Below are positions 13,913 through 17,679 of a stretch of 48,516 nt of DNA, in pieces (position 1 is the stretch's first letter; each line of letters opens with the position of its first letter). Both the position numbers and the translations under genes were made by a program. The notes beneath the pieces are model-generated. The model had not been told where the DNA came from and did no database searches. It saw only the letters and a list, made by a program, of their open reading frames with translations. Location of the stretch: positions 1 through 48,516 of the forward strand of contig DASUYB010000053.1 of NCBI GenBank assembly GCA_036377595.1, in the 5' to 3' direction. Origin of the DNA: Longimicrobium sp. (GTDB lineage Bacteria > Gemmatimonadota > Gemmatimonadetes > Longimicrobiales > Longimicrobiaceae).

Positions 13913-14995
13913 GTGGAGCTGACCTTCTTCGGATCGTCCCTCGTCTCCAGCTACTGGAACGGCGCGGCCACGTACTACCGCGGGCTGATCCGCGCCCTGG
14001 CCGCGCGTGGGCACCGCATCACCTTCTGCGAGCCGGACGCGTACAGCCGCCAGCAGAACCGCGACCTGGTCGAAGATCCGGACTACGCGCGGGTGATCGT
14101 CTACCGCAGCGAGGCGGAGCGCGACGCGCTGGTGGAGCAGGCGTTCGCCACCGGCGACTGGGTGATCAAGTGCAGCGGCGTGGGCGTGTGGGACGCGGAG
14201 CTCGAGGCCGCCGTGGCCGAGCGCTCCGGCGGCGGCGCGCGCACCGCGTTCCTCGACGTGGACGCGCCGGCCACGCTCGCCCGCATCGCCGCGGACGAGG
14301 GGGACGCGTTCCGCGCCTGCATCCCCCGCTACGACCACGTGTTCACCTACGGCGGCGGCCCGCCGGTGGTCGCGGCGTACACGGCGTGGGGCGCGCAGGG
14401 GTGCACCTGCATCTACAACGGCCTCGATCCCGAGGAGCACCGGCCGCTGGAGATGGCCGCGCACCCCGGGTTCGACCTCCTCTTCATGGGCAACCGCCTG
14501 CCGGACCGCGAGGCGCGCGTGGACGAGTTCTTCTTCCGCGCCGCATCCCTGTCTCCCGACCGGCGATTCGTGCTCGGCGGCGAGGGGTGGGGCGACAAGG
14601 CGATGCCGGCGAACGTGACGTATCTCGGCCACGTGCCGACGCATCGCCACAACGAGGTGAACGCGTCGGCGCGGCTCGTCCTCAACATCCACCGCGAATC
14701 GATGATCGAGAACGGGTGGAGCCCGGCCACGCGGATGTTCGAGGCCGCGGGCGCCGGCAGCTGCCAGGTGACGGACGACATGCGGGGGATCGAGGAGTTC
14801 TTCGCGCCCGGCGAGGAGATCCTCGTCGCCGGGGACGGCGCCGCCGTGGCGGAGATCGTGGCGGCCACGACCGACGCGGACGCGCGCCACATCGGCGAGG
14901 CGGGGCGGCGCCGGGCGCTGGCGGACCACACCTACGCCCAGCGCGCCGAGCGCATGGACGCCGTGCTTCACGCCGCGGTGGGGAGCGTCGCATGA
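13913..14995 (+). CDS. CgeB-like glycosyltransferase
   Basis: A 360-residue glycosyltransferase of the CgeB/DUF3880 type. It starts VELTFFGSSLVSSYWNG, has VIKCSGVGVWD and LFMGNRLPDREARVD in the middle, and SPATRMFEAAGAGSCQVTD in the donor-binding part. GTG at 13913 is preceded by GCGGGAGG, a good ribosome site that decides the start over earlier frame extension. Its stop overlaps the next ATG by four bases. It and the following gene share the SS-x-W-N-G opening, so they are likely diverged duplicates. The family is named for B. subtilis CgeB, linked to the outermost spore layer; the role here is inferred to be glycan assembly. Confidence 0.8.
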   Translation: MELTFFGSSLVSSYWNGAATYYRGLIRALAARGHRITFCEPDAYSRQQNRDLVEDPDYARVIVYRSEAERDALVEQAFATGDWVIKCSGVGVWDAELEAAVAERSGGGARTAFLDVDAPATLARIAADEGDAFRACIPRYDHVFTYGGGPPVVAAYTAWGAQGCTCIYNGLDPEEHRPLEMAAHPGFDLLFMGNRLPDREARVDEFFFRAASLSPDRRFVLGGEGWGDKAMPANVTYLGHVPTHRHNEVNASARLVLNIHRESMIENGWSPATRMFEAAGAGSCQVTDDMRGIEEFFAPGEEILVAGDGAAVAEIVAATTDADARHIGEAGRRRALADHTYAQRAERMDAVLHAAVGSVA

Positions 14996-16065
14996 AGCTG
15001 GTCGTCTTCGGCCTCTCCATCTCCTCCAGCTGGGGGAACGGGCACGCCACCACCTACCGCGCGCTCCTCCGCGCCTTCGCCGCGCGCGGCCACGAGGTCG
15101 TGTTCTACGAGTGGAACGCGCCCTGGTACGCCGACAATCGCGATCATCCCAATCCCCGCTACGTCACCCTGAAGCTGTGGGATGATTGGGATGAGATCCG
15201 CGCGGAGGCCGTCGCCGAGGCGCGCGAGGCGGACGCGACCATCGTCGGCAGCTACGTGAACGGCGGCCCGCGGGTGATCGACGACCTGGCCGGGGCGGGC
15301 GTGGAGCCGCTGTTCTTCTACGACATCGACACGCCGGTAACGGTGGCGGCGCTGCGCAACGGCGGCACGGATTACCTGCGGCGCGACCAGGTGCCGCTGT
15401 TCACGCGCTACCTGTCGTTCACCGGCGGCCCCTTCCTGCGCCAGGTGGTGGAGGGCGAGCTCGGCGCGCGCGAGGCCGTGCCGCTGTACTGCTCGGTGGA
15501 TGGAGAGCGCTATCACCCCACCACCCCCGACCGCGAGCTGGCGTGCGAGCTCGCGTACATGGGCACTTACGCGGCCGACCGCCAGCCCGTGGTAGAAAAA
15601 TTTCTACTGCGCGTTGCGGAGAGGCTGCCGCGCAGGCGCTTCATCGTAGCCGGCCCGCAGTACCCGGCGGAGATGGCGTGGCCGGGGAACGTGCGGCACA
15701 TCCACCACCTGCCGCCCCAGCGGCACCCGACGTTCTACAGCAGCGCGGCCTGGCAGCTGAACGCCACGCGCGCCGACATGGTGGCGGCGGGGTGGTCGCC
15801 CAGCGTGCGGCTGTTCGAGGCGGCGGCGTGCGGCGCGGCCATGATCAGCGACCGGTGGGACGGCCTGGACCACTTCTTCACCCCCGGCGCCGAGATCCTG
15901 CTCCCCGAAACGACGGAAGACGTCGTCGATATCCTGCGCAGCACGCACCCCGACGACCGCCGCGCCATCGGCGCCGCCGCCCGCGCCCGCATCCTGGCCG
16001 CCCACACCGCCGAGCACCGCGCCGAGGAGCTGGAGGCGTACGTGACGGAGGTGGTGGCGGCGTAG
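14992..16065 (+). CDS. CgeB-like glycosyltransferase
   Basis: A 357-residue protein opening MKLVVFGLSISSSWGNGHATT. Later it has LFFYDIDTPVTV, ELAYMGTYAADRQPVVEKF and SPSVRLFEAAACGAAMISD, the pattern of CgeB-type glycosyltransferases with a C-terminal Glyco_trans_1_2 domain. ATG at 14992 overlaps the preceding stop (ATGA), so it is coupled to its paralogue. It is the last gene of the cluster; GC content drops sharply within 50 bases after its stop. Acceptor and donor are unknown. Relatives are often found in tandem sets, as here. Confidence 0.82.
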   Translation: MKLVVFGLSISSSWGNGHATTYRALLRAFAARGHEVVFYEWNAPWYADNRDHPNPRYVTLKLWDDWDEIRAEAVAEAREADATIVGSYVNGGPRVIDDLAGAGVEPLFFYDIDTPVTVAALRNGGTDYLRRDQVPLFTRYLSFTGGPFLRQVVEGELGAREAVPLYCSVDGERYHPTTPDRELACELAYMGTYAADRQPVVEKFLLRVAERLPRRRFIVAGPQYPAEMAWPGNVRHIHHLPPQRHPTFYSSAAWQLNATRADMVAAGWSPSVRLFEAAACGAAMISDRWDGLDHFFTPGAEILLPETTEDVVDILRSTHPDDRRAIGAAARARILAAHTAEHRAEELEAYVTEVVAA

Positions 16066-16123
16066 ACTCGCACCCGTCCGATTGAGCCGATAATTTGCGG
16101 CGTCGCTGAACGTCTGATTCCAC

Positions 16124-16156
16124 CATCTGGATAATCAGATGCAGCAAATCTATGCT
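16124..16156 (+). promoter_or_regulatory. Promoter with overlapping dyad upstream of the TIR gene
   Basis: A dyad CATCTG-GATAAT-CAGATG (16124-16141) overlaps a possible -35 TGGATA (16128-16133). A possible -10 TATGCT (16151-16156) follows at 17-base spacing. It lies about 32 bases before the ATG at 16188, in AT-rich DNA. The match to consensus is moderate. Confidence 0.35.
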
Positions 16157-16187
16157 AGATTCTCTCCTCACTTCGCTCTAGCCGACC

Positions 16188-16991
16188 ATGCAAACTCCCG
16201 AAACGAAACACCTCGTCTTCCTGAGTCACAGTTCACGGGACGGTGCCGTCGTTCGGCGGATAAAAGACCTGCTGGTACATAGAACAGGCGGGACTGTGGC
16301 ATTCTTCTGCTCCAGCGACAATGAAAGCATCCCGTTCGGCCGTAACTGGATAAACAAAATCCTTTCTTCGCTGGATCAGGCGGATCTGTTTTTCGCCTTC
16401 TTGTCCCCGAACTCACTGGGTTCCCAATGGATTTTTTTCGAGGCAGGGATTGCTCACCAGCGCGATATTCCGACCGTTCCTGTTGGCATAGCCGGTGTGG
16501 ATATCGGAAAAGCTCCCCCACCCTTGGCCATCTTACAGGGATTCAATCTCATGCCGGATGGTCTCGAAAAGATGATGGCTGTGATTAACTCCACCTTTGG
16601 GTTCTCGCTTCCAACAGCATTTGATGATGCTGACTACAGCAGCCTTCGTGGAGAAACCGTTGAGACGATTTCGCTTGGTGACGGGACACACAGGTTCCAA
16701 GTTTTCTCAATAGATGACAACGGAGAGACACCGCATGAGCGGATCGCGGTACAAGTTCAAGGAACAACGATGACGGTGCGCTCTACCCAGCGAACCGAAG
16801 CATGGGAAAGTGTCGGCATCCTGGACCAGAACCGATATACTGGACGATTCAAGTATTCCCGTGGAGGTTCGCCCGAGGATGTGGGTAGTCACGATTTCGT
16901 TTGGAACGGGAGGGAATTCGTCGGTTCGGCCAAACTCGACAGCGGCAGATGGTACGTTGACAACCTGATCTGGCGGCCCATACGCGACTGA
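16188..16991 (+). CDS. TIR-domain protein with beta-rich C-terminal domain
   Basis: A 267-residue protein. Residues 7-140 form a TIR domain: LVFLSHSSRDGAVV for the first strand and helix, SIPFGRNW in the BB-loop region, and LSPNSLGSQWIFFEAG containing the expected catalytic glutamate Glu85. This points to NAD-cleaving or nucleotide-modifying activity as in bacterial defence TIRs. Residues about 150-267 look beta-rich (YTGRFKYSR, SHDFVWNGREFVG, WYVDNLIWRP) and match no domain I recognise; it may be the sensing part. No Thoeris, CBASS or Argonaute partner lies next to it. GC content is much lower than in the neighbours, so it is probably imported. It has its own upstream AT-rich region. A role in antiviral defence is inferred. 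Confidence 0.78.
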   Translation: MQTPETKHLVFLSHSSRDGAVVRRIKDLLVHRTGGTVAFFCSSDNESIPFGRNWINKILSSLDQADLFFAFLSPNSLGSQWIFFEAGIAHQRDIPTVPVGIAGVDIGKAPPPLAILQGFNLMPDGLEKMMAVINSTFGFSLPTAFDDADYSSLRGETVETISLGDGTHRFQVFSIDDNGETPHERIAVQVQGTTMTVRSTQRTEAWESVGILDQNRYTGRFKYSRGGSPEDVGSHDFVWNGREFVGSAKLDSGRWYVDNLIWRPIRD

Positions 16992-17031
16992 TGAAGCGCC
17001 CATTCGCTAGCAGCTGCTCCGCACATCTCCC

Positions 17032-17679
17032 ATGAAGATCAACGTCAAAATCCACCTCAGGCAGCTGCTCGACCTCGAGGATCCGCGCAACCTGAGGGCG
17101 TTTACGACGTCGCTGATGCTGGCGCTGCTGTTCGGCGCGCTCGCGTTTTCGACGTTGCTCTCCGTCGGTCTGCTCTGGGCGCTCCTCGGCGCCGTGCTGG
17201 CGATCGCGGCGACGATGATCTTGGTGCCGACAGCCGTGCTGTGGTTCGCGCACAGCGCCGCGCGCGGAGCCACGATGTTCGTCGCACCGTCAGGCAGCAG
17301 CACACCGTCGGCGGACGACTATTCGTACGAGAAGGCGCTGCTCGCGCGCGGGCAGGTGGACGCGGCGCTCGCGTCGCTGGAGGCGCGGCTCGCGAGCCGT
17401 CCCGACGACCCGGCGCTCTGCCTGTTCGTAGCGGACGTGTACGCCCGCGATGCCCGGGATCCCAGGAAGGCGGAGCGGCTGTACCTGCACGCGCGCGAGG
17501 TACCCGGCGCCTCGTCGGCCAACGACTACCTGGCCACGAACCGGCTGATCGACCTGTACATGGGCGCGCTGGACGAGCCCGTCCTCGCCGCCGCGGAGCT
17601 GGAGCACATGCGCGCCCGCCACGCCGGCACCACCGCCGCCGCGCACGCCGAGCAGGCGCTGCGCGCGCTCCGGCACTAG
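17032..17679 (+). CDS. Membrane protein with TPR-like C-terminal domain
   Basis: A 215-residue protein. Residues about 25-75 contain two transmembrane helices (LMLALLFGALAFSTLLSVG, then a second segment through ILVPTAVLWFA). The remainder (about 95-210) is a soluble helical repeat region with TPR features (KALLARGQVDAALASLEARL, CLFVADVYARD). It is probably anchored with the TPR part in the cytoplasm and acts as a protein-interaction scaffold; the partner is unknown. ATG at 17032 follows a CATCTCCC stretch with no clear ribosome site. GC content returns to the genomic level here, so it is unlikely to belong with the TIR gene 40 bases upstream. Confidence 0.7.
   Translation: MKINVKIHLRQLLDLEDPRNLRAFTTSLMLALLFGALAFSTLLSVGLLWALLGAVLAIAATMILVPTAVLWFAHSAARGATMFVAPSGSSTPSADDYSYEKALLARGQVDAALASLEARLASRPDDPALCLFVADVYARDARDPRKAERLYLHAREVPGASSANDYLATNRLIDLYMGALDEPVLAAAELEHMRARHAGTTAAAHAEQALRALRH

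Follow-up and report, generated by a model that had tools for sequence, protein, structure and literature searches.

Two-domain TIR proteins are among the simplest of immune designs, one half of the molecule killing and the other recognising. SpbK, the anti-SPbeta TIR NADase of Bacillus subtilis, follows this plan: it is a two-domain protein encoded by a single gene, and its non-TIR domain, an N-terminal four-helix bundle, binds the phage portal and drives clustering of the TIR domains (PMC12847820). In most bacterial TIRs the glutamate of the WxxxE motif is required for NADase activity (PMC11374754). The protein described here, encoded in a window of 48,516 nucleotides from Longimicrobium sp. 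(the whole stretch of DNA that was analysed), belongs to an ordinary kind, the bacterial TIR enzymes, but its form is unusual, an orphan tail being placed on a conserved chassis. The features of the locus are collected in Table 1.

Like SpbK, this protein is the product of one gene and joins to its TIR domain another domain, about 100 residues long; the order of SpbK, with its TIR at the C-terminus, is however not found, as the TIR begins at residue 5 and the extra module, predicted to be made of beta strands, is C-terminal. Among solved structures the nearest folds are SPARTA TIRs (Z reaching 15.6, with 2.7 A over 137 residues), then the TIR filament of SpbK (Z 14.4, with 3.0 A over 147 residues), matches differing by no more than 1 Z being counted as tied. 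The APAZ part of the SPARTA TIR-APAZ protein is far longer than the present tail, and there is no detectable sequence link to SPARTA or APAZ, the tail model being of low confidence. No pAgo match was obtained among the genes of the window, so that a short Argonaute does not accompany the TIR gene, the neighbours of which are glycosyltransferase-like and TPR-like.

Table 1. Features of the TIR locus, in the coordinates of the window
Feature	Position	Strand	Remarks
Glycosyltransferase-like gene, upstream flank, outside the system	14992..16065	+	conserved in the family
GC-poor leader between the glycosyltransferase-like gene and the TIR gene	16066..16187	+	122 nt, 51.6% GC
Weak hairpin, 12-bp stem	16105-16145		just upstream of the TIR gene; fold z -1.97
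TIR gene, 267 aa, ATG start	16188..16991	+	ORF; TIR_2 match; foreign codon use; single copy
TIR module, residues 5-156	16200..16655	+	hhalign to the clade alignment; AlphaFold2 model
WxxxE motif, Trp81 to Glu85	16428..16442 (Glu codon 16440-16442)	+	predicted catalytic Glu
Orphan C-terminal module, residues 157-267, ~111 aa	16656..16988	+	predicted antiparallel beta meander, low confidence
TPR-like protein gene, downstream flank, outside the system	17032..17679	+	orthologue only in sister genome G312

Site and origin of the TIR gene

The TIR gene is the strongest compositional outlier on its contig. Its GC content is 0.529 as compared with 0.66-0.75 in its neighbours, its GC3 is 0.575 where theirs is about 0.92-0.94, and its codon use lies 8.7 standard deviations below that of 22 genes of the contig (z -8.7), while across the 48.5-kb contig, where GC averages 0.713 (sd 0.038), the stretches of 900 nt with the lowest GC all cover it. 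Import had been proposed in the sequence-only reading on account of a lower GC content and a different codon use, and these values bear it out. GC3 is uniform along the gene (0.573 and 0.576 in its two halves); the fusion is therefore probably older than the import, and the two-domain protein was probably acquired as one unit. The gene exists as a single copy in its own genome. This same genome (G000) encodes nine TIR_2 proteins, two of them within frames of about 1450 residues.

A sister genome, G312, allows the site to be delimited to the nucleotide. Both flanking genes are present there, and the 587 nt that separate them hold another small ORF but no TIR gene; the upstream glycosyltransferase-like gene is 90% identical, and the downstream TPR-like gene, searched for in 21 genomes of the family, is present in G312 only (69% identity). 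Homology with the window ends at the upstream stop codon and restarts at the downstream start codon. The variable interval is therefore exactly 16066-17031, just the range first singled out, and the TIR gene, absent where its flanks are present, is thus a cassette placed exactly between the stop and start codons of its neighbours. Other relatives have differing sequence beyond the glycosyltransferase gene. Presence and absence in sister genomes, together with codon use, fit a mobile accessory gene; around the gene no clear mobile-element ends were found, merely short chance-like repeats, and no tRNA was found at the insertion site. The small ORF that occupies the site in G312 (L142, contig C110) begins MRMLTLNPDMLEVETFTT, has a Cys-rich acidic end and resembles the precursor of a modified peptide.

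The genes of the window are of the housekeeping type, with PEPCK, MsrA/SelR, menaquinone synthesis, transporters and glycosyltransferases among them, and PADLOC, run on 36 frames of the window, matched only candidate-type models (PDC-S03, PDC-S17, mad2/3/8), which lie somewhere within it: the neighbourhood of the TIR gene is not a defence island. The leader, first described as AT-rich, is GC-poor for this genome without being AT-rich as such. It yielded no Rfam match and no promoter scoring better than chance, and the TIR gene has no clear ribosome-binding site. Its hairpin is slightly stabler than shuffled sequences (8 of 200 shuffles were equally good) and is possibly an operator, or else a terminator of the upstream gene.

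The TIR module and its kin

The first module is readily recognised. The Pfam family TIR_2 matches residues 10-120 (E 1.9e-12; 48.2 bits against a curated cut-off of 28), the AlphaFold2 model, built with 42 relatives as alignment, has a pLDDT mostly above 90 across the TIR part (about residues 5-150), and the viral fold library returned TIR or nucleoside deoxyribosyltransferase folds. The motif reads W81-I-F-F-E85, and in the HMMER alignment Glu85 falls on the Glu of the WxxxE of AbTir. Both W81 and E85 are invariant across 43 aligned TIR sequences, as are F11, S13, F40, S42, S43, G51, W54, F84, G87 and P112, which upholds the early diagnosis of a TIR domain with an intact catalytic Glu85. From these residues, NADase activity may be predicted for the protein.

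An alignment of three TIR sequences, used to scan about 85,000 species genomes, recovered 80 loci, and the best 28 of these 80 make up a clade (L048-L075) with a TIR identity mostly of 40-50%, found in Verrucomicrobiota, Pseudomonadota, Bacillota, Bacteroidota, Planctomycetota, Chloroflexota, Myxococcota and other phyla. The clade proteins are nearly all 330-420 aa long (L056 ends early). After their TIR they have a conserved domain of ~210 residues that has no Pfam name (e.g. L048:3821-4879). In the tree the TIR of the window falls within the clade (support 94/67, internal order unresolved), at the end of a long branch of 1.23 changes per column, which would fit a changed function as well as a relaxed constraint.

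What the clade and the present protein have in common is the TIR module, 40-50% identical up to residue 156, whereas the conserved ~210-residue tail of the clade is absent from the protein and replaced by one of ~111 residues. When the clade profile is aligned to the protein with hhalign, residues 5-156 are matched (46% identity, E 1.1e-46), including the post-TIR stretch FDDADYSSL, and there the alignment stops; the two tails, compared in the same way, give a probability of 0.2% and are not detectably homologous. As the TIR and the post-TIR stretch have been kept while the tail differs, a domain exchange at residue 156 would be the simplest reading.

Several kinds of defence gene adjoin these kin, given here as raw, uncontrolled occurrences by locus: GajB, the Gabija helicase (L051), a type III methyltransferase (L060), RT_UG19 (L066) and another RT (L054), a PD-T4-6-like kinase (L053), CHAT and TPR-S (L059), Schlafen AlbA_2 (L055, L070, L074) and a second TIR (L058), with SLATT and phage integrase genes also among the clade neighbours, no locus being assigned to them. 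For the TIR clade, the enzyme class and the association with defence are supported. For the one-gene defence system envisaged in the sequence-only reading the outcome is divided, as the nearest TIR kin do adjoin defence genes, but the surroundings of the gene itself are of the housekeeping type and its tail has no relative; orthologues near defence genes can likewise be claimed for kin of the TIR module, while the two-domain architecture, with such a tail, is untraceable.

Some of these loci have a compact organisation of their own. In L060 (7998-14083) the TIR gene overlaps the start of the type III methyltransferase gene by a few bases, and a frame of 1047 aa follows. In L070 (6547-10853) and L074 (6457-9059) a gene encoding Schlafen AlbA_2 and a RecG-C-like domain lies about 30 nt before the TIR gene, and in L070 a DNA methylase follows, possibly forming a three-gene cassette. 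A short SPARTA had been considered for these two loci, as PADLOC called the preceding gene pAgo-like; this idea was dropped because Pfam shows the Schlafen AlbA_2 and RecG-C-like domains in it.

The orphan C-terminal module

The tail resists placement, as had been said of it from the beginning. Searches of Pfam, PHROGs and the PDB sequences gave it no significant match, and no relative came to light when genome and viral collections were scanned by pattern, whether for the whole protein or for the tail alone. In 394-395 genomes of the same class or phylum the matches were chance-like only, several of them in wrong frames or with stops; there were none in plasmids, those in phages had E values of 0.3 or worse, and none in viral contigs was significant. 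As no relative was found, conservation lends no support to a function of the tail, which could be a decayed remnant.

Structure prediction and fold search had been proposed for this part of the protein. In the full-length model the tail has some nine strands, arranged as an antiparallel meander, and a pLDDT of 44-66; folded alone it reaches a pLDDT of 40, a model too poor to interpret. The beta-rich nature first ascribed to it thus survives as strands in models of low confidence. With the full model, low-confidence tail included, Foldseek retrieves the intestinal fatty-acid-binding protein (E 7e-3). The VIA matches of the tail alone all stay below Z 4 (best 3.8) and bring together barrels (avidin, lipocalin, Cap15) and antibodies; that to Cap15 (Z 3.4, with 4.7 A over 75 residues) is almost equalled by immunoglobulin folds. 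These matches were treated as noise, and so were the Foldseek hits of the tail alone, to a norovirus protease (E above 0.3). A literature search combining TIR with lipocalin brought up nothing of relevance. A small barrel may be taken as a lead, suggested by these models.

Proposed working and its alternatives

On balance we lean, if only slightly, towards a horizontally acquired, single-gene TIR enzyme of the abortive-infection type, with a trigger-sensing module at its C-terminus. By analogy, the working would most likely resemble that of SpbK, with the tail acting from the other end of the chain. The TIR domain would stay inactive until a trigger reaches the C-terminal module; this trigger is probably something produced by infection or a component of the phage. 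The triggered module would then cluster the TIR domains, composite active sites would arise between neighbouring TIRs, Glu85 would cleave NAD+, and growth of the infected cell would stop. For this protein, NADase activity, clustering, a sensing tail and a role in defence are all inferred. A more specific version is rather doubtful: the tail would be a small beta-barrel sensor not described before, and by taking the place of the 210-residue module on a conserved TIR chassis associated with defence it would let one gene recognise a new trigger.

An imported TIR deprived of a working sensor, kept by chance or employed in another role, the metabolism of NAD or NAD-RNA for instance, is an unlikely explanation. 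The orphan tail, the long TIR branch, the housekeeping surroundings and the lack of a clear ribosome-binding site or promoter speak for a gene without a role in defence, or one that decays; against this, the frame is open over its full length, every TIR-invariant residue is kept and both halves are uniform in composition. It is distinctly improbable that the tail senses infection while the TIR makes a messenger of the cyclic ADP-ribose type for a separate effector, in the manner of Thoeris. Models of ThsB in PADLOC do match the protein weakly (1.1e-6), in its TIR part only, and they are also matched by its kin. ThsB genes, however, normally adjoin ThsA, and no ThsA-like match was obtained among the scanned genes of the window, none being seen beside the TIR gene; a search of the genome for the STALD domain gave no match, the control being likewise silent. 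Many bacterial TIRs make cADPR isomers (PMC10022894), and this too is in favour of a signal producer. That the beta-rich tail is a small barrel which binds a cyclic nucleotide as Cap15 does, switching on the TIR NADase as in a CBASS effector, is very improbable. In its favour are the weak structural matches between the tail model, of low confidence, and small barrels, this CBASS receptor among them, and the full-model match to the fatty-acid-binding protein; against it, the tail matches all have Z below 4 with immunoglobulin folds nearly equal, and no SMODS cyclase was found in the genome (96% complete; control positive).

Returning to the C-terminal sensor that we prefer, a clade with a stable killing half and an exchanged other half would provide a natural set of sensor swaps, and the present protein is a clean candidate for such a swap because its break point, at residue 156, is sharp. 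Should the tail prove to be a sensor, whatever triggers it would count as a newly recognised phage feature. TIR proteins with yet other tails also travel on phages: the phage-borne family phrog_29177 matches residues 7-131 of the TIR (E 2.3e-17) and consists of proteins of about 250 aa, found in several phages and plasmids, that form a more distant TIR branch. Among the recovered loci, L039-L047 and L033-L035 hold such phage- and plasmid-borne proteins of ~250 aa, each with tails of their own, and in L035 the TIR gene lies between the transcriptional activator and terminase genes of a prophage.
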